From Zygnema cylindricum (Eukaryota > Streptophyta > Zygnematophyceae > Zygnematales > Zygnemataceae), in NCBI GenBank assembly GCA_037447655.1, contig JBBHKE010003437.1, forward strand, positions 1-47,838: a DNA stretch of 47,838 nt, read 5' to 3'. The notes below the pieces were generated by a model. The model searched no databases and had not been told where the DNA came from. It saw only the letters and a program-made list of their open reading frames with translations. The stretch's first letter is position 1, and every line of letters starts with the position of its first letter. Positions 13,069 to 46,904 of this stretch are shown one piece after another. The translations under genes and the position numbers were made by a program.

Positions 13069-13410
<342 letters not shown>

Positions 13411-13825
13411 AATCAATTTCCACCACATCTTCCGCTTCGGGTAGAGTTGTCACTGGAATTTCCACGGCCGAGTCCTTCTCAGTCTGATTTGTACCTGTAA
13501 GAATGTCATCTTCTCTGAAACCAAGATAGTTAGGAAGCTCAAAGTCATCAGATTTTTCTGACTCAAATCTGATTTTTACTGACTTTGTATGCTTTAAGGG
13601 ATCCACAGACTTTCCTTCATTCATAACTACTAGATGTTTTACTAAGATTTTATCTTCCCTTTTTAGATCATAAACTCTGTATCCTTTTACATCCTCCTCA
13701 TATCCTAATATGTACCCCGGTTTTCCTTTAGGATCTAGCTTCCAATTAGACTGATCTGTATCTAGACTGAACACTTGACTACCAAAAGTGGGATATGTCT
13801 GGTTTTCGGCCGGTCCATCTCTCAT
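13411..13825 (-). pseudogene. Copia integrase C-terminal region and linker (element 1)
   Basis: An open stretch carries the features of the integrase-RT linker: GYRVYDLKREDKILV resembles the copia integrase C-terminal beta-barrel, and acidic, Ser/Thr-rich sequence follows. It aligns with 39978-40420 of the complete element. The frame then runs on through the TRIM-like remnant to 13265, which is accidental fusion sequence. It is separated from the integrase core upstream by a stop and frame changes. Confidence 0.65.
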
Positions 13826-13967
13826 AAGGTGTTTGGCCTTTTACCGCTGAAGTAAGAACTCCATTTTTGAGGTAATTAGCACAGTTCATTGCTTCGGCCC
13901 AAAACCTTTTTCCTATCTTCTTATGCGACAACATACTTCTAGCACTATCACTGAGTGTTCTATTTAA

Positions 13968-14474
13968 TCATTCAACTACCCCATTCTGTTCCGCGTTTTC
14001 TGGAACTATCTTTTGGTGTTGAACTCCATCTTCCCTCAGGAAATCCTCAAACTGGTTAGAGGTATACTCTCCACCATTGTCACTCCTAACACTCTTGATT
14101 GGGGTTTCATGGAGTTTTTCACTCCATGCTTTATATTGTCTAAAACAATCCCAAGCCTCTGACTTATTTTTCAAAAAATACACCATGGAATACCGAGCCG
14201 AATCATCTGTGATAGTCATCATAAATCTCTTCCCCCCGGGTAAAGGCACTTTGGCCGGTCCCCAAATATCTGTGTGTACTAAATCTAGAATCTTTTCTCC
14301 ATGATAGGTGGCTATTTTTGGGAAGGGTAACCTGTGTGCTTTACCTTGAGCACATCCACTACAATCACTTAGATTCTCAATCTCACCAAACTGAATCCCT
14401 TCCACTACTCCCATCTTTTTCATCTCTCTTAACTTATCTAGATTCACATGCCCAAGCCTCTTATGCCACAACAT
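13968..14474 (-). pseudogene. Copia integrase core (element 1)
   Basis: Starts with the GAG-pre-integrase zinc finger, LWHKRLGHVN followed by CSGCAQGK (HHCC type). The integrase core follows: first catalytic Asp in LVHTDIWGP, second in RSDNGGEY, and Glu in QNGVVE. A TGA codon directly follows that Glu, so the protein would end there. Element 2 has a Leu-Asn continuation at this place. A 52-bp tandem duplication just upstream (about 14536-14640) is a further defect. Substrate would be the element's own cDNA. Confidence 0.75.
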
Positions 14475-14689
14475 TATATCATGAACACTAGCATAATAAA
14501 GTTTCTTTTTTCATTGCTTAAAATCAGCCTAAACATCCCTTGGCTACCTTTTTGAGCAGTGAAATAAACTTCCTCCTCAATCCCTTGGCTACCTTTTTCA
14601 GCAGTGAAATAAACTTCCTCTTCAAAACTAGCTGTGAAGACTCTTTTCCTAATGCTAGTATCAAAACCCTTACCATCTAATAAAGATAA

Positions 14690-15217
14690 GTCTTATGTCC
14701 ATGTGTTTGGCTTTAAAATGATGTTTAGGATTGGCAAAAATTGCGATTGCTGCTTGATTATCACAAAAAACTTTCTGCACACCACTCTTAAGGTGACCAA
14801 GCTCACCAAACAAAGACTTGACCCACATCAATTCTTAAACAGTATATCAAGAGGCCATATACTCAGCCTCCATGGTGGACTGAGCAATAACCTTTTGCTG
14901 TTTGCTACTCCAACAACAAGCTCCATCACCCACATACAATACATATCCAGAAGTACATCTCATCGGAGCATCACCATGACTAGCATCACTCCAAGTAGTG
15001 ATGTTAGTATTCCCTCCACCCTAATGCGACCATAGATCCCTAGTTCCTATCAAATATCTAAAGACTCTCTTAGCTGCCTCCCAATCTCTCTTAGTGGGAG
15101 CATTTAGACTTCTACTCTGCACTCCTACTGCTGCAGCCAAATCCGGTCGGGTACAATTCATAAACATATTAGGCTTCCCACTACTTGCCTGTAATGAATA
15201 GTCTACATAAACTTATG
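14690..15217 (-). pseudogene. Copia RNase H remnant (element 1)
   Basis: Broken minus-strand frames align with the RNase H of the complete element (38440-38990). Recognisable pieces are SRPDLAAA-like, DASHGDAPMRCTSGYVL-like and FCDNQAAI-like segments. Stops and small indels interrupt the frame. At its downstream end it is fused to protease/integrase spacer sequence rather than continuing to a 3' LTR. Confidence 0.6.
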
Positions 15218-15910
15218 TTATTCCGGAACTAATTCCTCATCTAAGATTATGACTCTTTCTTCCACACTCCCCTCACTTCCCTTCTTCAACTCCATTAGAG
15301 TGGTATAACTATTAGCCTTATCCATCTGAAACTTTTCCAACATGTTACCTATTGCTTCTTTTTGAGTTAGTCTTATAATCTTTCTTTCTTGGTCTCTTTC
15401 TACTTGAATTCCCAACATATATCTTGCCTCCCCCATATCCTTTATCTCAAATCTCCCCTTAAGATCGGTTTTCAGTTTATTTATTTTGTCCATTGATTTA
15501 CTTAGAACAAGCAAATCATCAACATAAATTGCAATAAATATAATACCTTCCTCGTCTTCAAAAACATAGATTGAGTGATATGAGCTGATCTCAATATATT
15601 CCACACCTATAAGAAACTCATCAAGCTTCTTATTCCACTGTCGGGGCGCCTGTTTCAAACCATTAAGATATTTAATCAACCGGCATGCCTTACTCTCCTC
15701 TCCTTGCTCCAGAAATCCTTCGTGTTATCGCATGAAGATCTCCTCTTCCAATTCTCCATGCAAAAAGGTTGTCTTGATGTCCATCTGGTGCACCTCCACG
15801 TCTTCCGCTGTTGCCAAACTGAGAAGTATGCGGACGGAGGGAAATCTGACGACCGGGGCAAAGGTTTCCTCATAGTCGATTCCCTCTTTCTGTGTGAATC
15901 CTTTAGCCAC
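15218..15910 (-). pseudogene. Copia reverse transcriptase (element 1)
   Basis: Two frames together cover the domain. 15910-15725 holds the N-terminal part (KGFTQKEGIDYEETFAPVVR, then EVHQMDIKTTFLHG). 15679-15218 holds GLKQAPRQWNK, the catalytic YVDD motif in AIYVDDLLVLSK, and the thumb (DMGEARYMLGIQVERD). A frameshift lies between them near 15680-15725. YVDD is the usual copia form. The copy is dead as written. Confidence 0.8.
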
Positions 15911-21715: not shown

Positions 21716-21991
21716 GAGCACGGAAAGGCACTCAAAGTAAGGCGAGTAAACCAATAAGTAAGCTTAGGACAAGACGAAGAAGACCGTACAGTTGCAAAGG
21801 AGGAAAGGAAAGAAACAACCAAAGCTAGTAAAGGACAAAATCGCAGAGACAGAGGTAGAGATAGACAAAGGAAAGGAAAGAAGGCAAGCAAAAATTTAGG
21901 CAAAGAAAGCTAGGACAAGACGGAGAATAATACGAAGACAGTGCCACAGAGGCAGAGGGGGAAGAAGAGAGACAGGGCAGCAGCAGCAACT

Positions 21992-22788
21992 ATGGCTCCC
22001 TTAGTCGGTCCTCCTCCGACCAAACCGGCTCCTCCACCTCCAGAGGCCGAGTGCCAGCTGGCGTCCTCCAGCGCCTTCCAGGTCCCGGAAAGACCGCCGC
22101 AAATGGAGGCTGTAAAGGTTTGGGGCAACCGCCCTCTCTCCGAGGTGGATCCAGACGTGTGGAATCTCATCAAGAAGGAGGAAAGGAGGCAGTGGAAAGG
22201 CTTGGAGCTCATAGCTTCGGAAAATTTCACTTCTCAGGCAGTAATGGAGGCACTAGGGAGTGCACTTATCAATAAATACTCCGAGGGTTTACCCGGAGCT
22301 CGGTACTACGGCGGAAACCAGGTCATTGATCAGATAGAGAATTTATGTAGGGAGAGAGCTCTGCAGGCTTTCCATTTGGATGCAGAGCAGTGGGGAGTCA
22401 ATGTGCAGCCGTACTCTTGTACTTCCGCAAATTTTGCAGTTTTTACGGCGCTTTTAGGGCCAAAGGATCGGATAATGGGGCTGGATTTGCCTTCAGGGGG
22501 GCATCTGAGTCACGGGTATTACACGGGAGGAGGGAAGAAGGTGTCAGGAGCATCCATTTTTTTTGAGACTCTTCCGTACAAGGTGGACCCGCAGACCGGG
22601 TACATCGACTACGGGAAGGTGGAGGAGAAGGCACTGGATTATCGGCCGCGGCTGCTTATTTGTGGAGGCAGCGCCTATCCGAGAGAGTGGGATTATGCGC
22701 GCTTCCGTAAGATTGCCGACCGCTGCGGCGCCATTCTCATGTGCGATATGGCGCACATCAGTGGCCTCGTGGCAGCGCAGGTGCCCAA

Positions 22789-22853
<65 letters not shown>

Positions 22854-25218
22854 CTCTCGCTCTCTCTTCCCCGGTGTGGAAGCTGTTTGAAGGAGTGTGC
22901 AAGCATTCCCTGATGATGATGATGATGATGTTTGAGTCAACCTCATCTACACCTGAGGTAAGTTGTTATCGGAGGTCATTCCCGGAGGCTGCATGGAAGG
23001 AAGGCATTGGAGATGCATGGCTGTACATGGCCGTACATCACTCTCTTTCTTTGATCAGGATCCATGGATTTAGGTCTATGACAGGCGCACTTGCAGAGTT
23101 ACATTTTCCACTTTCCCTTCGTTTCTCCCCAACCGTGCCCCTCTCCCTGACCAATCCTCAATCTCTCCATGTGCCTAGTTCCCATTCTCTCTTAGATATG
23201 GAAACTGTAGATATGCTATTTCCCTTCCTGTTTTGCATCATCTTCCAGAGCCAGGGTGCGAGTATCACGAGGCATGTTTGAAGCTGACCGTGGCCTCACT
23301 CGCTCGTCTTTCTGCCTGCCACGTGTTTCTCAGGAGTGCCACAGTCCTTTCAACTATGCGGATGTGGTCACAAGCACTACGCATAAAAGCTTGCGAGGCC
23401 CTCGTGCAGGAATGATCTTCTTCCGACGAGGTCTTAAACCTTTGCGAAGAGTTTCCACTCCCAACGGTTCTGATGAAGGCGCGTACTACGACTTGGAAGA
23501 CAAAATCAACTTCGCGGTGTTTCCCTCCCTCCAGGGCGGCCCTCACAACCACCACATCGCGGCTCTGGCCGTGGCTTTGAAGCAGGTCTGTTCGCCAGCA
23601 TACCGAGCCTACATGCAGCAGGTTCGGCGAAATGCCGCAGCTCTCGCCACGTGTCTCATGCAGAGAGGCTGTCGGCTTGTCACCAACGGCACCGACAACC
23701 ATTTGTTGCTTTGGGACTTGCGGCCCCTGGGGCTCACAGGTGGGCACCTCAAGTGGCTCCTCTCCTCCTTATTTTTTATGTTGTATTGTTCTTCTTTTTT
23801 AGTTTTTTTCATGGTTGTTTTTTTTTAGGTGGTTAAGGGTTCTAGTGCAGGGATTTGGAATGGTTATTAAGTCTTATTCTAGGGTTTTTTACGCAGTATT
23901 TCATGCCTGTGTTATTAGTTCTTTAGTTGATTGTTTGCACGTATCTGGCTAGGGCTACGGAGGTGTTTTTGTTCTCTCGGTTCTGGAATTTTTGACCAGA
24001 AGCTTTAAGTTTTATTAGGGTTTTTTTTGGCTGCACAGGTGCCTTATTGTTTGAGTGTTCTTTTTGTTTTGCAGGAAACCGGTTTGAAAAAGTATGCGAG
24101 TTGTGTTCGATGACTCTAAACAAGAATGCAGTTTTCGGCGATTCCAGTGCTTGTGCTCCTGGAGGTGTGAGGTTAGGTGAGGAACTGATGTCATAATTAG
24201 TCCTTACTCTTCTCCTCCTCCTCTCTTTCTTTTTCTCCCTCTCCATCTCTCTCTCCCTCTCCCTTCCCCTCTCCCTCTCCCTTCCCCTCTCCCTCTCCCT
24301 CTCTCTCTTCTTCTTCCTCTCCCTGTCTTCTCCTCTCCCTCCCTCTCCCTCCCTCTTCCTATCCTCTCCCCCTGCCTCTCCTTCTCTTTCTTCCTCTCCC
24401 TCTCCTCCCTCTCTCTCTCCCTCTCCTCCCTCTCTCTCCCTCTCTCCCTCTGCAGCAGTTGCCAGGCGCCATGTCCTCAGGCGGGGGCCTCTCTCTCCCC
24501 CTCTCTCCCACTCTCCCTCTCTCCCTCTGCCGCAGTTGCCCGGCTCATGTCCAGGCGGCCTCTCCCCTCTCGTTCCTGTCCGGCTCTCCCTCCCTCACTG
24601 CTTTCCATGTCCTCAGGCGGGGGCCCCTCTCTCTCCCTCTCTCCCTCTCTCCCTCTGCCGCAGTTTCCCGGCTCATGTCCTTAGGCGGGGGCTCCTCTCT
24701 CTCTCCCCCTCTCCCTCTGCAGCAGTTGCCCGGCTTCTGCCCTCAGGCGGGGGCCTCTCTCTTTCTCCCTCTCTCCCTCTGCAGCAGTTGCCAGGTTTAT
24801 GTCCTTAGGCGGGGGCCTCTCTCTCTCCCTCTGCAGCAGTTGCCTGGCTTCTGTCCTCAGGCGGGGGCCTCTCTCTCTCCCCCCCTCTCTCCCTCTGCTG
24901 CAATGCCCGGTTTATGTCCTAATGCGTGGTCCATCTGTCTGTTCCTCTGCAGGCACTCCGGCGATGACTTCCCGCGGCTGCAAGGAGGCGGACATGGAAA
25001 GAATCGCTGATTTTTTGGTGAAGGCGGCCCAAATCTGTCAGAAGATAGCGAGAGAGAAGCTGAAAGTGCAGCGCGAGCTCATCAAGCGTTTAGAATTTTC
25101 TCCCGAAATGGTTGATCTTAGGAACGAGGTTGAAAATTTTTCCTCAAGTTTTGACATGCCTGGTTTTGACGTGGAGCCCTTGAGAGGGAAGAGATGGCTT
25201 CAAAATGGACAGACTTGA
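21992..25218 (+). CDS. Serine hydroxymethyltransferase, plant SHM6/SHM7 type (4 exons, 520 aa)
   Basis: This PLP enzyme interconverts serine and glycine while charging tetrahydrofolate with a one-carbon unit. Exons are 21992-22780, 23334-23739, 24075-24176 and 24953-25218; all introns are GT-AG and the frame is continuous. Seen motifs: [11 protein letters not shown] (about 72-81), the YSCTSANF form that marks the plant SHM6/7 branch (141-148), [11 protein letters not shown] with the PLP-stacking His (168-178), CDMAHISGL with the PLP-pairing Asp (251-259), [15 protein letters not shown] with Schiff-base Lys281, and GGVRLG with the carboxylate-binding Arg431. The N terminus has about 40 extra Pro/Ala-rich residues, also usual for that branch; location cannot be decided. 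The start is the first ATG in frame and has A at -3 and G at +4; the frame is open further upstream but has no ATG. The gene appears intact. Confidence 0.93.
22787..22866. repeat. (TC)n(AC)n(TC)n compound microsatellite in SHMT intron 1
   Basis: Begins seven bases after the exon-1 donor: CT repeats, then about 19 AC units, then CT again. A (GAT)n run of about six units follows at 22912-22932. Pyrimidine richness next to a donor site is unusual and could affect splicing. Confidence 0.9.
24200..24950 (+). repeat. Pyrimidine tract and acceptor-like minisatellite in SHMT intron 3
   Basis: 24217-24450 is almost entirely C/T. From 24449 a unit of about 50-75 bp repeats seven times. Each unit has a CTCTCCCTCTGC tract, mostly followed by AGCAGTTGCC, and then usually GGCGGGGGCC. 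Several units therefore look like strong 3' splice sites. The true acceptor (CCTCTGCAG, ending 24952) is the last of the series. The frame of exon 4 is open backwards through the later units. Confidence 0.8.
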
Positions 25219-31377: not shown

Positions 31378-32737
31378 TTTGGACAGATCCACTCACACGC
31401 GAGTAGGGCCATACGTTATGGACTCTGCGAGTGGAGAGATTATTGAGGTCGATAGTTCTGGAGAGGCCACCTTCATCTGCTTGGATATTGTGGGAACGAG
31501 CACTGGTAACCAGTTTTATGTGAACGGACAACAAGCTCAGATGAAGTTTCGAACCTTTAATTCGGTAAGTTTCAGAACAGAAACCTCTCCCCTCATTGGC
31601 ACATGATGATGTTTCACGGATCGATCTCTACTTTTTGAACGGTTACAAGTCCATGTGCTTAAACTAGTTTAATGTTAGAAATGGAAACAATTTTTGTACG
31701 GACATACAATGTACAGAAGGTTAGAGTTGCATAGCCATAACAACTTCACAAGTATTATTAATTGAGGCTTACGGAATACTTCGCATGTATGGTAAGCACC
31801 TAAGAGCTACTACGAGAATTCTTGCTCTGTGATTACCCTTACCGCGGTACAAATCCCAAGTGGCAATAGCGTAATAAACCTTAACTTGAACGACGCAAAC
31901 CAACAAATTTATCCCGATGAGCACCGATGCCTTGTGTTTGCAACGGGCCCCTTAACGGCATCGTGCACCTGTTCACCTTCCTTTAATAAAATTGTTCTCA
32001 CACCACCTCCACCTCCTCCGCCATCTCCATCACCACCTCCATCTTCTCCTCCTCCTCCCTCACCTTCTCCCCCTCCACCACCACCCCCACCTCCACCATC
32101 TCCTCCCCCTCCTTCACCTTCACCGCGCCCACCTCCACCATCCCCTCCTCCTCCTTCACCTTCACCTCCTCCTCCTTCAACTTCGCCTCCTCCACCATCT
32201 CCTCCTCCACCTTCTCCTCCTCCTCCCTCACCTTCTCCCCCACCTCCATCACCTCCCCCACCTCCACCATCCCCTCCTCCTCCTTCACCTTCACCTCCTC
32301 CTTCTTCACCTTCACCTCCTCCTCCTTCACCCTTGCCTCCTCCACCATCTCCTCCTCCAACTTCTCCTCCTACTCCCTCACCTTCTCCCCCACCTCGATC
32401 AACACCCCCACCTCCACCATCTCCTCCCCCTCCTTCGCCTTCACCTCCTCCTCCATGTTATCCTCCACCTACTCCTCCTCCTCCTTCACCTTCTCCCCCA
32501 CCTCCGTCACCACCCCCACCTACACCATCCCCTCCTCCTCCTTCACTTTCACCTCCTCCTCCTTCACCTTCGCCTCCTCCACCATCTCCTCCTCCACCTT
32601 CTCCTCCTCCTCCCTCACCTTTTCCCCCACCTCCATCACCCCCCCAACCTCCACCATCCCCTCCTCCTTCTTCACCTTCGCCACCTCCACCATCTCCTCC
32701 TCCACCTTCTCCTCCTCCTCCCTCACCTTCTCCGCCA
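31378..32737 (+). CDS. Hydroxyproline-rich wall protein with (Ser-Pro)n domain, partial
   Basis: Seen: an exon ending at 31564 with the strong donor GTAAGT, and a second from 31805 (or 31817; both acceptors are in phase 0) into the assembly gap. The first reads RVGPYVMDSASGEI...SGEATFICLDIVG, and the second starts with a Cys-containing globular part (HRCLVFATGPLTASCTCS). About 240 residues of SPPPPSP-type repeats then follow to the gap. Ser-Pro-n repeats after a Cys-containing globular domain are typical of extracellular, O-glycosylated wall proteins of green algae and plants (pherophorin or extensin class). The first exon is set here from the TTTCAG acceptor ending at 31377, but its frame is open further upstream. 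The start codon and C terminus are not seen. All three frames of the repeat are open, a by-product of its simple composition. Confidence 0.65.
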
Positions 32738-32747
32738 NNNNNNNNNN
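32738..32747. other. Assembly gap of 10 N inside the Pro-rich repeat
   Basis: Ten N follow the (Ser-Pro)n tract. The number is probably nominal. Sequence after the gap lacks the repeat, so neither repeat length nor the reading frame beyond can be trusted. Confidence 0.95.
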
Positions 32748-33964
32748 CTTTTAGTGACGCAACAACACTAGCTGTCACCGAGATTGTACACACGTCAGCT
32801 TCCAGATGGCTCATACAAATGAATCAATGGAACCCGCTTGGTATTTTAACTATGTTAACACTGTTGCTAAAATTTGTTATTGCTTTGAAGGTTTTTTATG
32901 TTTATACTACAACTTCAAGAACTTAACAAACTAGATTAACTGGAATCATTTAGTGACCAGTGCAAAAAGTCTGTCTCATTAATGTTTTAGAAAACTTTTT
33001 ATGAAATATAATTTATTTTTTGCCTGAGTGATCCTATCTTGTTGAATGCATCGTAAATACTCTTAAGCATTCGGAGCAAATAATTCCACCGCGTTGCGTT
33101 TTATTGTTATAAAGTATTTTTCAAAAGATTTTGTAATTACTCTGTCTGAAAAACGTGACCAGTGATTTACTAAGGTCAATTAGATCAAACAATTCAAGAA
33201 CTTCAACATCATATTTGTATTTTTTGGAAGTTTCGTTATTGTTTAAAATCGTTGTCACAATTGTATCAATTTTATGGTTCGCCCAAGGTAACTAAGTAAA
33301 CATACTCGGTAGACCTTCGACTGCACACATGTTAGAGCCACTGTCGATCACAACAACGCAGTGATTTTCTTAAATATCAAAATTGGACATTTCAAAATTG
33401 GTCAAACAATTTTTTTGTGGCGTAAAAACATTTTCCGCGGTATGTTTTTCCTCCATAAAACGATTGGCTTGAAGCGTCTATACATGAAGTTTAAGTTATT
33501 TCTCAATAAATTGAGCAGTTTTTCTCTAAGTTTTAAGATGATCAAGCTACGAATATCTTTGGCAGAAAATATAATCTAGTTTTAATTTTAAGGGAAGCAA
33601 GGATATTTTTCTCCATTTTAGTGTACAACTAGGTTTTGTTTGAATTGTGGTCAAATTTCTCTAACTTAAAATACTAATGAAAGATATCCATTAATTGTCT
33701 GAAACATGTGAGTAGCCAATAATTAGGATTTGTCTAGGGAAAATTGACGTAATAATTTAATTTCCACTTATTTGTTTATGAATAATTATTAATGTCGCAT
33801 GAAATTAACATAATAATATGATATGTTTGTGGAAACACGATATAAAATGCATAATTAGCACTTTGCAATAATGTACAACGTATGAGTAAGCCTATCATTA
33901 CGATCTGCCGCGTAATATTGACAAATAATTTGGCATATTTATAAAAACACCGTATAAAACGCAA
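32748..33964. other. AT-rich region after the gap, no gene seen
   Basis: The frame that happens to continue from the Pro-rich repeat ends at 32926 and looks non-coding. The rest holds no recognisable gene. Two diverged units (about 33796-33873 and 33911-33985) share the phrase TATAAAAYGC-AATTA and lead into the hAT MITE fragment. Confidence 0.35.
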
Positions 33965-37223: not shown

Positions 37224-38294
37224 TGCAACTGTGAGACCTCCATAGGACCTCAGAGTAGGCAGCTCACACGAAGCCTTTAGGATAACCCTGACCCTTTTGT
37301 CTTTCAGCACGAATAACTGCTTCATTGGCGAACAAAAACTCTGACCACCTTCACCCTTGTGAAGGGAAGACTCTCCTCAATCGATAGCAAAAAGAATCTC
37401 TGAATTTGCTCCCCTGAGTAGTAAGTTATGGAGGGTCAAAGTTTACCTTTTGTACAGAAGCTCTCCGGGAGAGAGGGTCCTATCTACCAAATTTTTCTAA
37501 GTCCTATCTCTCTCTAAAACTCTATCTACTGACGTACGGCACCAATTATATTACTGTACCGTACAAAAAGGTACAGCTGCTGGTGTACATAATGTACGAA
37601 CATTGTACGACATAACCAAAATGTCAACACGTGTCTTTTTTGGATTCGTTTTTGTAACCCTTGGAGATGCCGAAATCCAATGTCCTAGTGCCACGTGTCA
37701 TCCGATGTGGCGGCGACAATAAACCGCCGAATTCTTCCTCCGCGATCTCGGCATTCTTTCCGGCCGTCCGATTGAATGTCGATTTCAATCGTAGCCGTCA
37801 TAAATATTTGCGATGTATTAATTTGCTATCGAAACAAATGCGCGGTACATATTTATTCTTCGTACTCGTAATCCGTACTTTTTATAACTGTCTCTATGTT
37901 TCCCGTATATAGTTGCCGTTAATTGAATTAGCCTTTATGTTAACGTTTACATATTTATTAAACTTTATATCATCTACCGCTAATCCTAGACTAAATAGAT
38001 GAGGCTACCGGCTACTGGCTACCGGCTAGTGGCTACCGGCGGCATTACCTATCCGTAGGTACCACGATAAAATCCTCTAAGCGACAGCTTTGTTTTTAGT
38101 AAATCAACTACTTTACTACCCCGTAAATCTGTGGATAGCATATGCAGCCATGGCACAAGCTTCCTCTCCAACTTCTCAGTTACTGCAGCAAGTGTGAGAG
38201 TTAGAGAGAGAAGTTAGCGACAGACTGCCTTGGCTTTTTTTTTTGCTCTTTATTTTAGACCTAGAAAATACTGAAAAAACCATCATTTTCTACA
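37224..38294 (-). repeat. 3' LTR of copia element 2 (1071 bp)
   Basis: Matches 42628-43878 throughout except for the MITE in the other copy. It contains a GGCTACCGGCTACTGG-type short tandem (37999-38045) with more units than the 5' LTR has at 43408-43430. Its inner end abuts the purine tract. It holds the uninterrupted CAACTACTTTAC site where the MITE sits in the 5' LTR. Confidence 0.9.
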
Positions 38295-38409
38295 CTCCCC
38301 TTATTTTCTAGTCATTCTTTAATTTCAGACCACACTTCTCCTTGCAGAAAATTAGCTTAGGGGAAGGCACAGGTTTGGTCATCATATCTGCTACCATCTC
38401 GTTTTTTGG

Positions 38410-39146
38410 TCAATACTCTAAACTGATTATTTTGTTTTCTACTTTCTCTCTAACAAAGCTGTGTCTAATGTCCATGTGTTTGGCTTTAAAATGATGTTTA
38501 GGATTGGCAGAAATAGGGATCGCTGCCTGATTATCACAAAAACATTTATGCACACCACTCTTAAGGTGACCAAGCTCACCAAGGAAAGACTTGACCCACA
38601 TCAGTTCTTTTTCAGCAGAGCAAGATGCCATATACTCAACCTCCATGGTGGCCTAAGCAATAACCTTTTGTTGTTTGCTACTCCAACAGCAAGCCCATCA
38701 CCCACATATAATACATATCCAGAAGTACATCTCATCATTGGAGCATCACCATAACTGGCATCACTCCTAGTAGTGATGTCAATATTCTCCCCACCCAAAT
38801 GCAACCATAAATCTATAGTTCCTATCAAATATCTAAGGACTCTCTTAGCTGCCTCCATATCCTTATTAGTGGGAGCATTTAGACTTCTACTCAACACTCC
38901 TACAGCTGCAGCTAAATCCGGCCGGGAACAATTTATAAAATAGATTAGGCTTCCCAGTACTTGCGTGTAAGGAATAGTCTGCATGAACTTCTGTTCTTTA
39001 GGACTTAATTCCTCGTCTAAGACTATGACTCCTTCTTCCTCACTCCCTTCACTTCCCTTCTTTAACTCCATTGGAGTTGTACAACTATTAGCTTTATCGA
39101 CCTCAAATTTTTCCAGCATGTTCCCTATTGCTTCTTTTTGAGTCAA
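38410..39146 (-). pseudogene. Copia RNase H (element 2)
   Basis: Two minus-strand frames, 39146-38601 and 38646-38410, overlap at a frameshift. The first has VLGSLIYFINCSRPDLAAAV, and the first catalytic Asp in TRSDASYGDAP. The second has the Glu in EVEYMA and the Asp in CFCDNQAAI, then the usual copia C terminus. All catalytic positions are present, but the frame is broken, and the start is joined to RT by another disrupted segment. Confidence 0.8.
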
Positions 39147-39234
39147 TCTTATAATCTTTTGTTCTCAGTCTCTTTCTACTTAAATTCCCAAAATATATTT
39201 TGCTTCCTCCATATCCTTCATTTCAAATCTCCCC

Positions 39235-39700
39235 TTAAGATCGGTTTTTCAGTTTGTTAATTTTTTCCATTGATTTACTTAAAACAAGAAAATCATCAAC
39301 ATAAATTGCAATAAATATAACACCTTCCTCATCTTCAAAAACATAGATTGAGTGATCTGAGCTGATCCGAATATATCCCAGACCAATAAGAAACTCATCA
39401 AGCATCTTATTCCAGTGTCGAGGCGCCTGTTTCAAACCATAAAGAGATTTAATCAGCCAGCATACCTTACTCTCCTCTCTTTCCTCCACAAACCATTCGG
39501 GTTGTCGCATGAAGATCTCCTCTTCCAATTCTCTGTGCAAAATGGTTGTGTTGATGTCCATCTGGTGCACTTCCATGTCTTCCGCTGCAGCCAGGCCAAG
39601 AAGTATGCGGACGGAGGGAAATCTAACCACCGGGGCAAAGGTTTCCTCGTTTCAATTCCCTTCTTTTGTGTAAATCCCTATGCCACTAATCGGGCCTTGT
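39235..39700 (-). pseudogene. Copia reverse transcriptase (element 2)
   Basis: The main frame 39630-39235 has EVHQMDINTT, LYGLKQAPRHWNK and the catalytic YVDD (AIYVDDFLVLSK). Its N-terminal continuation (fingers) lies upstream in another frame. A frame change near 39240 separates the thumb and connection region, which continues in degenerate form towards 39147. The family is the same as element 1, with small differences. Confidence 0.8.
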
Positions 39701-39977
39701 AGCGCTCGATTGTGTTATCTGGGTTCATTTTTAATTTGAAAACCCACTAACAATCGATTGGTTTTCGGTTAGGTGGTCAATCCACCAGCTCCCAAGTATC
39801 GGCTGCCATAATTGAGACCATCTCCTCATTGATGGCTGTCTTCCACCGGTTTCTTTCTGGACAAGTCATCGCCTCTCTATAAGTTTGAGATTCATCATGA
39901 TGAGATAGTTTAGTTACCTTGTTATTAACCTGTTTTTCTTGTAGTCTTTTGCTACTTCTCCTTCCCCCCTCAAAATC

Positions 39978-40420
39978 TCAGGCCGGAATAGATGGTTCTC
40001 GTGGATTCTTTCGAACAAACTCGACTTCTCCCCTATCCCTTGATTCCGAATCAATTTCCACCACGTCTTCCGCTTCGGGTACAATTGTCACAGAAGTTTC
40101 CGAAGCCGAGTTCTTTTCAATCTGATTTGTACCTGCAAGAATGTCATCTTCTCTAAAACCAAGATCGTTAGTAAGTTCAAAGTCATCAGAATTTTCTAAC
40201 TCAAATCTGATTTTTATAGACTTTGTATACTTGAAGGGATCCACGGACTTTCCTTCATCCGTAACTACTAGATGATTTACTAAGATTATATCTTCCTTTT
40301 TTAGATCATAAACTCTATATCCTTTAACATCCTTATCATATCCTAATAAATATCCCGGTTTTCCTTTACGATCTAGCTTCCAATTAGACTGATCTGTATT
40401 TAGACTGAATACTTGACTGC
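39978..40420 (-). pseudogene. Copia INT-RT linker (element 2)
   Basis: The acidic, Ser/Thr-rich linker reads GFREDDILAGTNQIEKNSA and then EAEDVVEIDSESRDRGE. The latter is the point at which both ends of the permuted element 1 break. It ends in a stop before RT. Confidence 0.6.
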
Positions 40421-40564
40421 CGAAAACCTTTAAGTGAGATATGTATGGTTTCCGGCCTGTCCATCTCTCATAAGGTGTTTGATCTTTTATAGCTGAAGTA
40501 AAACTCTATTTTTGAGGAAATTAGCACAGTTCATTGGTTCGGCCCAAAACCTTTTTCGTATCTT

Positions 40565-40894
40565 CTAGTCCGACAACATACTTTTAGCACAATCACTTAG
40601 TGCCATATTTAATCTTTCAGCTACCCCATTCTTTTCTAGGTTTTTTGGAACTGTCTTTTGGTGTTCGACTCCATCTTCCCTCAGAAAATCCTCAAACTGG
40701 TTAAAAGTATACTCTTCACTATCGTCACTCTTTACTCTCTTGATTGGAGTTTCATGGAGCTTTTCAGTCCATGCTTTATATTGTCTAAAACAATCATGAG
40801 CTTCAGACTTGTTTTTCAAAAAATATACACCCTGGAATACCGAGACCAATAAATCTCTTCCCCCCCCGGTGAGGGCACTTTGGCCGGTTCCCAA
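40565..40894 (-). pseudogene. Copia integrase, C-terminal half of the core (element 2)
   Basis: Contains the second catalytic Asp in KSDDSEEY (canonical SDNGGEY, so both Gly are changed) and the Glu in KNGVAERLN. The segment between first and second Asp is partly missing: compared with element 1, the substrate-loop part near 40850 is shortened and out of frame. Confidence 0.7.
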
Positions 40895-41586
40895 ATATCC
40901 GTGTGTACTAAATCTAGAATTTTTTCTCCCCTATAGGTGGCTGTTTTGGGAAAGGGCAATCTGGGTGCTTTACCTTTAGCACATCCACTACAATCACTTA
41001 GATTCTCACTCTCACTGAACTGAATTCCTTCCACCACTCCCATTTTTTTCATCTCTCTTAGCTTATCTAGATTCACATGCCCATGCCTCTTATGCCACAT
41101 GATTATATCATGAACACCAGCATAATAAAGTTTCTTCTTTTGATTGCTTAAAATCAGCCTAAACATCCCTTGGCTACCTTTTTCAGCGGTGAAATAAACC
41201 TCCTCCTCAAAACTAGCAGTAAAGACTCCTTTCCTAGTGCTAGTATCAAAACCCTTATCATCTAATACATACGTATAGATGAGGTTTTTGATCAGCTCCG
41301 GGATAAACAATACATCGGAGAATGTAACTATGGATGTTTTTCCTTCTACCAACACTTTCAGATCTACCGATCCTACAAGAGTAGTAGTGACTATCCTCTC
41401 ATCCCCGTACTCTATCTCTACGGTGGGAATCTTTCTTATCTTAGTGAACAGGTGTTTATCCTTACATATGTGCATGGAGGCACCTGAATCTAGAATCCAG
41501 CCTGCTTCACCTTTTAATCCACCGAAAGCACATTTCTGCTTTCGTGGAATTTCTACCTCGTTTGTCGCTTCCAACTCCTCCTCCAA
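40816..41586 (-). pseudogene. Copia protease and integrase N-terminal half (element 2)
   Basis: The protease active site WILDSGASMHIC is followed by the usual beta-strand pattern (VLFIPELIKNLI). Then come the spacer, the HHCC zinc finger (MWHKRHGHVN...CSGCAKGK) and the first integrase Asp (LVHTDIWEP). The frame is lost shortly after. This is the best-preserved part of the element. Confidence 0.8.
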
Positions 41587-41613
41587 TAGGATCTCATCGT
41601 CATCGTCTTCAGA

Positions 41614-42647
41614 TTACACCTTATGTACCTGTGTCACAAGGGCCTTTTTCTTTCCTCTCGGGGTTCCACCGGGCTGCCCCTCCTTTAACCGAAGCTCGGT
41701 TAGCTTAGTGCACTCCGCCATATAGTGCCTTGGTTTCTTACGGAAATGATATAAGCCCTTCGGAGCCCTTCGTCCAAACTCGTCGGTCTGATTTTTCTGC
41801 TCCCCCCCTCCGTAATTTTTGACTGGTCTCCGAGAATCCTTGTTCCTCCAATCGGTCCCAGCTGCCAAGGCTTGCCCACTCTTTCCTCCCCTTCGGATCT
41901 CAATTGTATTCTCCCGAACGAGAATCATTCCTACCACTGAGTTCTATATCCACCTTGAGTCCGGCAAGTCTTGCACACGGTTGACTATGTTCTCGAACTC
42001 ATCGGGTAACTTCATCAGTAGACAGTTAACCTTTTCTTTTTCACTAAAATCTTTCAAGCACTCTCAAGCTCCATGAAAAATGTAGCAAGCTCATTGCAAA
42101 AATCCAACATCTTCCCCCCTTTATATACATACTCCTTAACTTTCTGATCAGCCAACTGTTGTTGCTGAATCGTACCACTTCGGTACATCTCTATTAGAGC
42201 CATCGAAAGATCAAATGCCCTTTCTCCTTGCAAATGAGGACATGCAAGTCCTTGAGTACGATGGCGGAGGATGAAGTGCTTTGCCGCCATATTGATGAAG
42301 TCCTACGTATCAGTATCATTCTCCGCGTTCCTCGGAATAAGTGACATGAATGCCGAACCAGTAGCTATTGGTGTGGTTGTCTCTTTCTCCTTTCTTTTGT
42401 CCACCACATCTCCTTCATTTGTCTCCTCTGTTGAAGATGGATCTGCATCTCTAGTGAATCTGCCTTCTGTAAACCCTAGAGGTGTCCCAAGACTCGATGG
42501 ACACCTCACCCGTCCACTCACTATTCCCCAAAACCGTTTCTCACATAGAGCTCCTGTCATCATACTTTCCCAGTATATGAAGCCAGCTCCATTCAATATG
42601 GGCACCCTAGATGGTGGGCTTATAACAAACAACTCAAAGACCTCCAT
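41614..42647 (-). pseudogene. Copia gag with degenerate zinc knuckle (element 2)
   Basis: Three minus-strand frames: 42647-42303 (with VPILNGAGFIYWESMMTGAL, the N-terminal gag motif), 42290-42054 (gag core, ending in KMLDFCNELATFFMELE), and 41937-41614 with the nucleic-acid-binding knuckle. In the knuckle YHFRKKPRHYMAEC the first two Cys of CCHC are replaced, while His and the last Cys remain. Gag would be non-functional. Confidence 0.7.
42613..42627 (-). promoter_or_regulatory. Primer-binding site of copia element 2
   Basis: Read on the minus strand, TGTTATAAGCCCACC directly follows the 5' LTR. It agrees with the initiator-Met primer site TGGTATCAGAGC at about 8 of 12 positions, so the assignment relies partly on position. 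Confidence 0.5.
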
Positions 42648-43878
42648 AGGACCTCAGAGTAGGCAGCTCACACAAAGCCTCTAGGATAACCCTGACCCCT
42701 TTGTCTTTCAGCACGAATATTTGCCATCTTGGCAAACAAAAACTCTGACCACCTTCACCCTTGTGAAGGCAAGACTCCCCTAAGTCGATAGCAAAAAGAA
42801 TCTTTGAATTTGCTCCCCTGAGTAGTAAGTTATGGAGGGTCAAAGCTTACCTTTTGTACAGAAGCTCTCCGGGAGAGAGCGTCCTATCTACCAAATTTTT
42901 CTAAGTCTTATCTCTCTCTAAAACTCCATCTACTGACATTCGGCACCAATTATATTACTGTATCGTACAGATAGGTACAACTGCCGGTGTACTTTATGTA
43001 CGAATATTTTACGACATGACCAAAATGTCGACACCTGTCTTTTTTTGATTCGTTTCCGTAGTCCATAGAGATGCCAAAATCCAATGTCGTGGTGCCACGT
43101 GTCATCCGATGTGGCGGCGACCATAAACCTCCGAAATCTTCTTCCGCGATCGCGACATTCTTTGCGGCCGTCCGATTGAAAGCCGATTTCAATCGTAGCC
43201 GTCATAAATATTTGCGATGTATTTGTTTCGCTATCGAAACAAATGCGCGGTTCGTATTTATTTTTCATACTCATAATCCGTACTTTTCATAACTTTCTCT
43301 ATGTATCCTGTATATAGTTGTCGTTTAATGTATTAGCCTTTATGTTAACGTTTAAATATTTATTAAACGCTATATCGTCTACCACTAATCCTAGACTAAA
43401 TGGATGAGGCTACCGGCTACCGGCGGCATTACCTGTCCGTAGATAGCAGGATCAAATCCTCTAGGCAACAACTTTCCTTTTAGTAAATCAACTACACCGC
43501 TTATCGCTATTAGAGTATATAACGCTAATACAGTGCCCCTAAATTTTGACCCCAAAACGTGAAATATAATTAATAACGCTATTGAAGGGCGTGGACCATA
43601 ATCTGCCACGTTTCAGACACTTAATAAGAATCAATAACGCTAATTATTTTTTGACGCTATTTAATCCTTGACTCTTATAGGGATTGGCAATGTACTTTAC
43701 TACCTCGTAATTCTTTGGATAGCATAGGCAGCCATAGCACTAGCTTTCTCTCCAACTTCTCAGTGACTGCAACAAGTGTGAGAGTTAGAGAGAGAAGTTA
43801 GAGACAAACTGCCTTGGCTTCTTTTTGTGCACTTTATTTTAGACCTAGAAAATACTAAAAGAACCATCAATTTGTACA
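42628..43878 (-). repeat. 5' LTR of copia element 2 (1251 bp including a MITE)
   Basis: The partner of 37224-38294. After subtracting the MITE and its TA it is about 1051 bp. The outer end TTTGTACA is followed by the ATAGG duplication. Confidence 0.9.
43495..43692. mobile_element. 198-bp TA-flanked MITE in the 5' LTR
   Basis: Ends CACCGCTTATCGCTATTAGAG and the complement of CATTGCCAATCCCTATAAGAG are imperfect inverted repeats, flanked by TA (43493-43494, 43693-43694). The 3' LTR reads CAACTACTTTACTA at this point with a single TA, so the element inserted after the retrotransposon did. Same family as 7917-8462. Confidence 0.92.
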
Positions 43879-43883
43879 ATAGG

Positions 43884-44567
43884 CGCGGCCTCCAAAATCT
43901 TCCAGTAAAGCTTCAAAATCATATCCATTCTTTGGCGAAACACATGGGCCGTTGTAGGTGGAGATCTTCCACTAAAGGATCTAATCCACATATACGATCT
44001 TTGAGGGTGTGGACATTAATTTTTTAGGGGTTAGGTAAGCATGTTGTGTAGGTTTTTCGTATGTTGGTAGTTATTTTTGGTAGATTTGTTCAAGTGTTGG
44101 TGGTTTACTACTTTGGTGAACTTTGATTTTTTTGTTTTTTATTTTGAGCTAGTCTCTTTTCACTTTCGTAGAACGTAAATGCTATTTTTTTTACCCCTTC
44201 GTACTTTAAAGTTTTGTCCATCGTATGTTTTGCAATAAGGCCTTATGGGGATCGGATTATGTGACAAACATAGGTTGTATTATTTAGGATTGGGGCCTTT
44301 TGGTTGTAATTGTTAAGCCTCGAGGCCTTTAAGTACGTTAACAAGCTTTCACATAACTGTTTCCCTGGTACCTCGTAGGCAAAGATTATATATTGAAAAT
44401 CGTCAAAGTTTTTTAAAATCGTGCAATTTCATTGTAGAATTTGTATTTCCGAACTATATCATTGTACAATTTTTTTGACAATGTCAATCATAGTTGCCTA
44501 ATTTATACGGATTTCTACTTTAATGAAAAACCATGTAGTATTCCTAGCTTTTATCCTTTTCGTAAAT
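43884..44567. other. Intergenic region, no gene seen
   Basis: AT-rich. The only oddity is a short inverted repeat GTGGAGATCTTCCAC near 43958. Confidence 0.35.
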
Positions 44568-44792
44568 TGTTAGATTGGCACATGAATGTTGGTTCAATAC
44601 GAGGTAGAATGTGATATGTCACACTCGAAGCCGACTAAAATAAATAGGTACGAACCTCCTAGGCTCTGCATCGAGCTGGTGGTATAGTGGTTAGTGCGCG
44701 ACATTCAAGTCAACAGTCCCGGGTTCGAGCCCTGGCTGACTCAATTTTTCCTAGTATGGGATATAAATCCTAGGATTCAAAGAAATCTAACA
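44568..44792 (+). repeat. LTR1 of the tRNA-bearing TRIM-like element
   Basis: TG...CA ends with the 9-bp inverted terminus. The tRNA-like unit lies 105 bp inside and is followed by TTTTT. Confidence 0.85.
44673..44743 (+). tRNA. tRNA-Glu-like sequence in LTR1 (anticodon position TTC)
   Basis: The acceptor arm GAGCTGG pairs mostly with CTGACTC. Box A (TGGTATAGTGGTTAG) and box B (GGTTCGAGCCC) are intact, the T-arm CCGGG-TTCGAGC-CCTGG pairs fully, and a T5 Pol III terminator follows at 44745. The anticodon arm is two bases short, so it is unlikely to give a translating tRNA, but Pol III signals are complete. It is similar to tRNA-Glu in the D-arm. Confidence 0.7.
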
Positions 44793-44805
44793 TGGTATCG
44801 GAGCC
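44793..44805 (+). promoter_or_regulatory. Primer-binding site of the TRIM-like element
   Basis: TGGTATCGGAGCC, one base from TGGTATCAGAGCC, begins at the first base after LTR1. This is the initiator-Met tRNA 3'-end complement used by many plant copia elements. Confidence 0.85.
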
Positions 44806-44849
44806 AGCGGAGTTGCGAATGGTTTGACCGGCCATTCCGCGAGAGGGGG

Positions 44850-45079
44850 TGCTAGATTCGCACGTGAATGTCAGTTCAATACGGGGAACAATGTGATACG
44901 TCTCACTCGAAGCCGCCTAAAATAAATAGGTATGGACCTGCCAAACTCTAAATCGAGCTGGTGGCACAATGGTTAGTGCGCTGACAACTCAAGTCAAAGG
45001 TCCTAGGTTCAAGCTCTGGCCGGCTCAATTTTCTCTAATATCGGACATGCTGAATCACGAATTTCTAAGAAATCTAATA
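44850..45079 (+). repeat. LTR2 of the tRNA-bearing TRIM-like element
   Basis: Starts TGCTAGATT after the purine tract and ends near AATCTAATA, where the CA end has mutated. It aligns with LTR1 over its full length, with substitutions and small indels. Confidence 0.8.
44954..45027 (+). tRNA. tRNA-Glu-like sequence in LTR2 (anticodon position CTC)
   Basis: The acceptor GAGCTGG/CCGGCTC pairs at all seven positions (one G-T). The anticodon arm TGAC-AACTCAA-GTCA has a 7-base loop with CTC in the anticodon place but A instead of T at position 33. The variable loop has 5 bases and the T-arm pairs with wobbles. TTTT follows. It folds better than the LTR1 copy overall. The odd position 33 argues against a translating tRNA. 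Confidence 0.65.
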
Positions 45080-45184
45080 TTTTAACATTGTTTCTTGTAC
45101 ACAATGTACGGGAATGTATGTTAAGTGTGGCCTTAAAATATCATCCAAGTGTCGCAATTCTACACGTTATGTTATTGACTAGGC

Positions 45185-45369
45185 GATTCTCAGAGGTGGG
45201 TAGCCTAAAGATAGAGAGGGATGGAGAGATCGTTTCGGATGAGGACTTAAATAGGATTGAACAGTTGATGTTTGCACCCAAACACTTGGAGAGTCACGGT
45301 CGGATCTTTTTGTTTTGCAGTTTTTTAAAAATCCTAAAAAACTATAGGACATGGTATGGAAAAGTATGA
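45185..45369 (+). other. Unrecognised open stretch, possible exon
   Basis: The frame after CTCAG at about 45193 reads GSLKIERDGEIVSDEDLNRI and then EQLMFAPKHLES, with more coding-like composition than the surroundings. The family is not recognised. It could be a captured gene fragment or chance. Confidence 0.25.
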
Positions 45370-45419
45370 AGTTTTGTAAATAGCCTCACTTTTCGTCTGA
45401 TGGACACTCACTCTAAAGT

Positions 45420-46300
45420 TAACATTAAGTGCACTTTCCTATGTGATAAAGTAAGGGTTTTTTTTGTAGGTTTCCTCCAAAACTTAGCCAGCAACGAGAA
45501 AGTCCGCAATTGTACCAAATGAAATTACCATATTACAACTTGTGTAAGTTTAAAACTTTGAATGTATTGCGGTTTGTCGTCTAGCGCGTTTTGACCCACT
45601 TTCTCGTTCTTCCATCTCATCTTCAAACTTCTACTTAAATCACCTCGTGAGGTGATTTTAACTAAAGTTTCATGATATGAACGAATAGATATGAATACAC
45701 AAATGTTGTTGCACGCACCGGAGGTTTTTGAAAACATTTATGAGTGGAGTACAAACAAAAAAACCCAATGCACGTTTCCAACTTGTGCTTACTTAACTCC
45801 GTGTTTTTTTTTTACGTATAGGGGCCGTGGAGGGGTCTCGACCAACGAACGCCATTTCTTCAAAAGCGAAGTACGTGAAGGCGCCGCTTTCTCTCTCCCT
45901 CTCCCATTACCGTGTCTATCTCATAATTCTTATAATGAAAAACGACAACTATGCTATCAAATGAAAGATCTTTAAAAAATATCAATCTTAACTGTTTTTT
46001 GGGGTATTTTGATGGCAAGTAGAGTGAGAAAGGACAAAAAAAAACAGAATATAGAAACCATGGCGTAAAGTTTTGGAATAAGTGACGTCGACGCTATCAT
46101 AAGTGAGCGTGACGTCAAAATGTCACAAACCCGAAACATCTGCAATGTCACAAAGTACTAGACGCCCTCAACCGTCGCTAGTTTGTAAACGTCATCAATT
46201 GTCGCAAGTTTTGTAATCGTCTACAACCGTCACAAATTACACCCACGCCCACATCCGTCACAATTTAAAGTAACGATTTCATTACATTACAACGAAACCA
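45420..46300 (+). repeat. Dispersed repeat R1, copy 3 (uninterrupted)
   Basis: Same order of landmarks as 2055-3440 without the MULE-like insertion: CTTTCCTATGTGATAAAGT, TCACCTCGTGAGGTGA, GGGGCCGTGGAGGGGTCTCGA, TATTTTGATGGCAAGTAGAG, then TACAACCGTC. A short additional piece of the family lies at about 46680-46750. Confidence 0.7.
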
Positions 46301-46904
46301 TAGTTGTTCAAATCGCATATTATGCACGAAACGAATGCGCGAATACTACATACGATACGCGCGAATACTACATACGATTCGCATATAACGATTCTAAAAA
46401 ATTGATAAAATGCGTAACTTACTATATACCCGTACATTTTCATACACTTATGTACTGTGTCATTATATTTTAGTATAGTTGCCGTCTATTTTCCGTACGT
46501 ATTCCTACAGTGTCCGTATATGTCCGTACTTTTAACAAAATTTACGAAAAGTATGAAAATAACAAATACTATGTAAAATCGTAAAAAAGTAAAAACCCGT
46601 CCGAATTGAAAATCTATGAGTTGAGCGCTTTGAAAGTAGTACGTAAAATATTCGCTAGAAAATAAAGTAGCAAGACTAATGGTGCGTCTCCATGTGCCAA
46701 AGTAAAGGTTTTTTTCTGTCGTTTTCTTGTAAAACTTAGAGCCGTACCGCGTAAGTTTTAACAATACAAAAAAATAGAAAAAATGAGAAGTACATTTTGC
46801 GTCATCATCGAATTTAGCATATAAACAAACTTTTCTTTAAAACACAGGGAAGATGTGTTTTAAAACAAAGTATTTTCGAAAAAACAAATAGGAACACGTA
46901 TTAG
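46301..46904. other. AT-rich spacer, no gene seen
   Basis: Contains the tandem GCGCGAATACTACATACGA (46335-46380) and a short R1-like piece (46680-46750). No gene is recognised. Confidence 0.35.

Follow-up and report, generated by a model that had tools for sequence, protein, structure and literature searches.

Positions 44568 to 45079 of the window, by which we mean the whole stretch of 47,838 nucleotides analysed here, raise the question of what kind of element is formed by two repeats that each carry a tRNA-like sequence, and of what the tRNA does in it. The direct repeats at 44568-44792 and 44850-45079 are the LTR pair of one TRIM, the whole copy of which measures 512 bp, with all features on the plus strand. 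LTR1 is 225 bp long with the termini TGTTAGATT and AATCTAACA, which form perfect 9-bp ends, LTR2 is 230 bp long with the termini TGCTAGATT and AATCTAATA, and the internal part (44793-44849) comes to 57 bp in total. The repeat comparison bore out what the initial annotation had described from the letters alone, namely paired LTRs, a 9-bp terminal inverted repeat in LTR1 and an internal part of this length. The primer-binding site TGGTATCGGAGCC (44793-44805), which is of the Met type with one A-to-G change, begins at the first base past LTR1, and the final base of the polypurine tract GAGAGGGGG (44841-44849) adjoins LTR2, both as had been proposed.

In LTR1 a decayed tRNA-like unit occupies 44673-44743; the TATA-like word AATAAAT (44639-44645) starts 34 bp 5' of it, and a T5 run (44745-44749), a possible Pol III terminator, stands directly 3' of it. 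The same arrangement is found in LTR2, where AATAAAT (44921-44927) again starts 34 bp 5' of the tRNA-like unit (44955-45027) and a T4 run (45029-45032) directly follows, confirming the T-runs that had been read behind the tRNA. When scored with permissive filters against Rfam RF00005, the LTR2 unit reached 42.8 bits (E 1.6e-7), above the gathering score of 29, and the LTR1 unit reached 26.0 bits, below it. With a lowered threshold, ARAGORN reported Glu(CTC) in LTR2 and was undecided between Glu and SeC in LTR1, and neither unit was called by default ARAGORN or by the fast Rfam scan of the whole window.

The window copy is an old, decayed TRIM copy, with an LTR identity of 82.1% over aligned bases (79% by BLAST) and no target-site duplication (flanks TAAAT/TTTTA). 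It does not overlap any listed reading frame of 130 aa or more. The flanks of the copy are repetitive as well, so that it apparently travelled as part of a larger block of at least 2.7 kb: the block at 43878-46586 is 88% identical to contig C510 near 18.4 kb over 2734 bp, and a segment of 915 bp compared near 22.1 kb of the same contig matches the block at 85% over its full length. An imperfect inverted repeat of 33 bp (79%) was also observed at 44536-44568 and 46539-46571, the left arm of which stops at the TRIM start; it is perhaps an older DNA element into which the TRIM inserted.

The TRIM belongs to a large dispersed family, denoted family A, in a genome of 353 Mb of which the window is contig C2574. 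When used as a genome query, the window element gave, besides itself, at least 41 near-full and two partial matches with 74-86% identity, the count being a lower bound because the best 40 of 778 first-look candidates were scored, and some of the matches overlapping one another within tandem arrays. With so many matches in the same genome, a chance origin of the window element is ruled out, and the genome search found further copies which share the LTR-PBS-PPT-LTR structure, in agreement with the earlier expectation. The measurements for family A were made on 40 copies (39 further loci and the window), among which L031 and L043 were kept although flank duplication makes them repeats of L030 and L042, and from which the second internal part of L026 was excluded. 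Exact 5-bp target duplications were found in 19 of the 40 copies (window included), and 4 of the 5 bases agreed in two more, in comparison to a random exact agreement of about 1 in 1000 per copy. The LTR identity ranged from 77.8% to 100%, and the three copies with 100% (L012, L015 and L020) each carry an exact duplication, so that the copies with 5-bp duplications and identical LTRs which the initial annotation had proposed to look for do exist. The young copies are 515 to 517 bp long (n = 6). The primer site and the purine tract stand at the junctions of the family-A copies displayed, the purine end of L041 lying outside the display, and the primer-site pattern with up to two mismatches was found at 153 places in the genome in comparison to 4 for the reversed pattern.

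Solo LTRs and tandem arrays are also part of the family. Ten of the 13 single-LTR places (L048-L060) have no adjoining internal part, and four of those ten (L048, L049, L057 and L059) are solo LTRs with exact duplications. Tandem arrays of the form LTR-internal-LTR-internal, with a period of about 286 bp, were observed at L032, L034, L044, L066 and L067. The second tRNA unit of the L044 array is of a different subtype from the first, and the third scores like the first; given these mixed subtypes, the arrays seem to recombine.

A search with L064 as the query revealed a sister family, family B, with at least 73 matches when the best 40 of 864 candidates were scored. The measurements for family B covered 42 loci (39 fetched and L062-L064), and the duplications were read after each LTR end had been adjusted, within 6 bases, to the closest TG/CA-type terminus. 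Exact duplications were found in 25 of the 42 loci and 4 of 5 bases in two more, in a set where L063 is incomplete, L130/L131 and L127/L134 resemble duplicated pairs and the duplication of L119 is GGGGG. Identical LTRs were observed in L098, which has a duplication, and in L099, which has none. Family B shares the plan of family A, and L012 (A) and L063 (B) are homologous end to end, with an identity of 85% in the tRNA, 77% in the internal part, 73% in U3 and 62% in U5, these figures being based on one copy of each family. In the family-B LTRs of L062, L064, L100 and L119, a piece of the tRNA module is duplicated, shifted or stretched in a way that resembles copying slips.

The tRNA is a regular component of the family-A LTR. 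It was found by ARAGORN in 75 of 83 LTRs, and in 73 of these 75 it starts at LTR offset 105-108, so that a tRNA which is absent from the LTR or sits at different places among the copies, named beforehand as the result that would speak against such a family, is not what the copies show. Rfam gave 44 tRNA matches above the gathering score, with a top score of 54.6 bits, in 26 of the 39 loci scanned, and none above the cut-off in the other 13. A pattern made from the 5' half of the tRNA (up to one mismatch) was found at 181 places in the genome in comparison to 1 for the reversed pattern, and prokaryote genomes and viral contigs gave no matches to the tRNA pattern. Within family A, the conservation of the tRNA columns was 0.956, in comparison to 0.936 for U3, 0.946 for the part after the tRNA and 0.900 for the 3' end, a slight gap that would be as expected under neutral decay after insertion.

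Although a tRNA unit in each LTR was supported by the scores of 26.0 and 42.8 bits, the Glu identity originally given to it was not, the CTC slot being the only feature in its favor. The anticodon slot reads CTC, CTG, CTT or CTA depending on the lineage, and position 33 is G in 168 and T in 3 of 191 modules. Functional tRNA genes nearly always carry U33 in the anticodon loop, and 188 of the 191 modules lack it; the host Lys, Gln and Arg tRNAs read here have T at this position (by eye). A true tRNA-Glu identity was thus rejected, position 33 being non-standard and the anticodon slot variable, and decoding is not what is retained in the LTR tRNA. Boxes A (TGGCA..TGG) and B (GGTTC) are both present in young copies of the two families. 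No parent tRNA gene could be named, the nearest host tRNA being a tRNA-Trp at 70% among the tRNAs read from 30 loci, for which the best 63 of 24,620 first-look candidates were scored. The LTR tRNA was also rejected as the element's own primer, as the PBS mismatches its 3' end (by eye).

The element is of a kind already described, of which it is a further member. The initial annotation knew of no TRIM with a tRNA in its LTR, a statement superseded by Kojima 2024 (PMC10886601), who named tRNA-bearing TRIMs Helenus (TRIMp3), a name which also appears in a meeting report (PMC12859917). According to the accessible part of the former paper, the hosts of Helenus are fungi, animals and a single plant species, Selaginella moellendorffii. 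The plant and fungal elements make 5-bp duplications, solo LTRs occur, and zebrafish has tandem arrays; most Helenus elements have box A TRGCY..YGG and box B GGTTC, and the Pol III promoter itself is putative. The likeness, which is one of description and not of sequence, consists of a length of less than 1000 bp without coding capacity, the LTR-PBS-PPT-LTR structure, a tRNA-derived sequence with both boxes inside the LTR, target duplications of 5 bp like those of the fungal and plant elements, and solo LTRs, and box A of the young copies fits the Helenus form except at the fifth base, which is A and not Y. The dimensions differ, as Helenus-1_SMo has an LTR of 120 bp and an internal part of 85 bp, whereas the LTRs here are about 222-230 bp and the internal parts 57-65 bp; the host here is apparently a zygnematophyte alga, whereas Selaginella is the only plant in that part of the paper. 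The fixed spacing between TATA-like word and tRNA, the contrast between families A and B in T4, and the paired stem changes go beyond the description of Helenus given there. No paper on tRNA-bearing TRIMs in streptophyte algae was found in the open-access literature.

The parallel drawn earlier with Cassandra holds, this being a TRIM family in which both LTRs of a copy contain a unit of tRNA type. In the sections of the Cassandra papers at hand, the points in common are a small-RNA gene promoter in each LTR, a putative one here, together with a Met primer site (PMC10853983, PMC7215508), and tandem LTR-internal arrays (PMC7215508). Cassandra carries 5S rRNA whereas a tRNA is found here, and 5S rRNA was absent from the Rfam scans of the window and of the family-A loci. 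Ajax, the nemertean TRIMs with part of a 5S rRNA, is alike in general plan but has 5S in place of tRNA and occurs in animals, as far as it is described in PMC10886601. The tRNA-derived SINEs (SINE2) share a tRNA Pol III promoter, but the duplications here are constantly of 5 bp and the tRNA stood inside LTRs at all 20 places sampled.

To describe the signals which flank the tRNA, 202 tRNA modules were collected from the fetched loci, 201 of them with sufficient flank for counting. A TATA-like word was found at -34 in 77 of 98 A modules, as AATAAAT or as AAGAAAT, the latter being a weak likeness, and in 13 of 15 modules of the array subtype A2, and at -32 in 77 of 88 B modules, mostly as TATATAA. 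The percentage of flowering-plant tRNA genes with an upstream TATA is 22% to 32%, and with CAA 78% to 82%, within 50 bases, and poly(T) lies downstream of part of them, as stated in the consulted part of PMC11700998. Here CAA within the last 10 bases 5' of the tRNA was observed in 0 of 98 A, 14 of 15 A2 and 4 of 88 B modules, and a T run of four or longer within 20 bases 3' of the tRNA in 90 of 98 A, 14 of 15 A2 and 5 of 88 B modules. In the young copy L012 (515 bp), the only T runs of at least four are those behind both tRNAs, at 180 and 466. For comparison, about 65% of the transcripts from a B2 SINE ended at TTTT in HeLa cells and few at TTT, and about 95% termination at TTTT is quoted for a model tRNA gene, both in the portion of PMC8466645 that was available.

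The stems of the cloverleaf covary. In 25 modules, which were hand-picked from the 202 to span four lineage types, 97.5% of the pair cells were standard in comparison to 94.1% after shuffling, with none of 500 shuffles reaching that value, and 18 cells were changed on both sides in comparison to 5.9 in shuffles (0 of 500), the kinship among the module sequences inflating these tests; the number of pairs with a double change (4) was not above shuffles (168 of 500). All 21 pairs are intact in one representative of each type (L012, L066, L098 and L103). The six stem differences between A and A2 form three compensated pairs (27-43, 29-41 and 30-40), the A2 representative having G-C at 30-40 where other A2 units have G-U, and the six between A and B2 also form three (11-24, 27-43 and 29-41). 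Random stem changes in equal number spared every pair in 0.03% of the trials for both of these comparisons, in 0.1% for A and B1, 1.1% for B1 and B2, and 17% for A2 and B1. Among the 191 modules of regular length, 76 have all pairs, 48 have 20 pairs and 37 have 19. The independent paired changes are few, about three or four with several within one arm, and an exchange of the anticodon arm between sister lineages could create several of them at once. By energy folding of single sequences, the cloverleaf was not the best structure for a young A copy and was favored for one B copy, with a lowest z-score of -1.61, and the internal part, in which a notable hairpin was expected, folded no better than shuffles.

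The anticodon stem lies outside the Pol III promoter, so its paired changes point to a role of the folded RNA. The suggestion in the initial annotation that the tRNA shape might help packaging or priming thus finds some support in the compensatory stem changes, and its priming part gains none, given the mismatch between PBS and LTR tRNA. A more tentative reading, which we consider less likely than not, is that selection maintains the entire cloverleaf, anticodon stem included, as a structure of the R-region ends of the element RNA, where it would be a tRNA mimic that has lost decoding and may serve retrotransposition through end protection, export, packaging or strand transfer.

Taking the sequence evidence together, we consider it fairly probable that the element is a Helenus-type TRIM transcribed by Pol III from the LTR tRNA, and that an autonomous partner, probably a Copia element, copies and integrates it in trans. 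TFIIIC and TFIIIB would bind box A, box B and the TATA-like word near -34, and Pol III would initiate near the first tRNA base in LTR1. In part of the rounds it would read past the T4 of LTR1, through U5, the primer site, the purine tract and U3, and the transcript would end at the T4 of LTR2, giving about 364 nt in a young copy (L012, with a start at position 106) with the tRNA at both transcript ends as terminal repeat R. The autonomous element would package this RNA, prime it with initiator tRNA-Met, copy it into DNA and integrate it with 5-bp duplications, the latter being of a kind that may fit Copia mobilisation. Pol III transcription, the read-through, the tRNA as R and the Copia partner are all four what we infer. 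The primer site TGGTATC was not seen behind the LTR of the Copia element in the window (37.2-43.9 kb), which was rejected as the autonomous partner for want of a matching PBS. As T4 lies behind the LTR1 tRNA in 90 of 98 A modules, many Pol III transcripts should stop before the primer site, which would make Pol III transcription less simple than first assumed. It also counts against the model that the tRNA is only slightly better kept than the rest of the family-A LTR, that 13 of 39 loci lack a tRNA match above the Rfam cut-off, that RNase P and RNase Z could cut an intact cloverleaf in the RNA, and that the window copy lacks a target duplication.

Three other explanations were weighed against this reading. 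That tRNA genes or a tRNA-derived SINE lie scattered here and owe their LTR look to chance insertion might be thought from the tRNA scores of up to 54.6 bits in young copies, but it is contradicted by a sample of 20 further tRNA-pattern places, drawn from the 100 listed and none of them among the loci fetched earlier: the family-A U3 stood upstream in all 20 and the U5 followed in 19, and none was a free-standing SINE or tRNA gene of the window type. A free SINE or tRNA gene was rejected on this sample, and since the 5-bp duplications in both families and the non-T position 33, where the host tRNAs read here have T, also stand against it, this explanation is extremely improbable. Transcription by Pol II from a TATA box in U3, with the tRNA as an old passenger or as R/leader RNA only, has more in its favor. 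The TATA at -32 in most B modules and the absence of T4 within 20 bases past the tRNA in 83 of 88 agree with it, and the family-B TATATAAAA box with the missing T4 would fit Pol II as well; in the parts of the literature consulted, TTTT can stop about 95% of tRNA-gene transcripts (PMC8466645), which argues against Pol III read-through in family A, and Asteraceae have Cassandra-like TRIMs with a TATA box and without the 5S promoter (PMC10853983). The TATA distance, however, also fits plant Pol III genes as given in the same part of PMC11700998, the tRNA has stayed more alike between the families than U3 and U5, with boxes A and B still readable, and a passenger tRNA is not expected to keep its stems through paired changes, so we regard Pol II transcription as rather unlikely.

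The remaining explanation is that the cloverleaf is kept mainly as RNA, either as the R region or as a released tRNA-like RNA with a part in stability, export, packaging or strand transfer, and that the promoter is secondary. The intact 21 pairs in the four lineage representatives, the three compensated pairs between A and A2 that chance would spare in 0.03% of trials, and the excess of standard and doubly changed cells over the shuffles all speak for it. They are offset by the small number of independent paired changes, several of which arm exchange could yield, by a count of double-change pairs not above shuffles, by the choice of an A2 row with G-C at 30-40 where other A2 units have G-U, by the presence of every pair in 76 of 191 modules, and by the energy folding, which did not favor the cloverleaf in the young A copy, though it did in one B copy. 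We consider a mainly RNA role to be quite improbable, and retain Pol III transcription from the LTR tRNA as the preferred reading.

The two many-copy families and their tandem arrays probably extend the tRNA-bearing TRIMs to a zygnematophyte alga, and the identical LTRs are signs of recent activity. Zygnematophytes are the algal group closest to land plants. The families offer natural variants in which T4 is kept or lost, the TATA strength differs and the stems have changed in pairs, and these bear on how a full-length RNA passes the terminator in its own first LTR and on whether the small-RNA part acts as a promoter only or also as RNA. They are also a warning that tRNA gene finders may report false tRNA genes in such genomes, as they did in rust fungi through such elements, according to the accessible part of PMC10886601.

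Several other features were observed in the window. The decayed Copia element at 37226-43878 lies on the minus strand and has an LTR pair (37226-38294 and 42630-43878) of about 88-90% identity, with GAG-pre-integrase, Pol_BBD and RVT_2 pieces between the LTRs, and further Copia-type pieces (integrase core, SH3-like and RVT_2), in an apparently unusual order, lie on the minus strand at 13265-15679. An SHMT gene in exons occupies 21941-23825, and its nearest relatives in a one-gene tree are zygnematophyte algae: it is placed together with Mesotaenium, Spirogloea and Closterium among eight grouped rows, on which the probable zygnematophyte host is based, with a support of 93/86, which is below the 95/80 mark, and 38% of the columns filled, the Mesotaenium and Spirogloea labels being presumed from the record prefixes. 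The reading frame at 9167-10033 has three protein matches (two from moss and one from a conifer) with 38-43% identity, one of which is named glycosyl hydrolase family 32-like, and no Pfam family. A long proline- and serine-rich reading frame with CCN repeats, interrupted by N letters, lies at 31829-32926.
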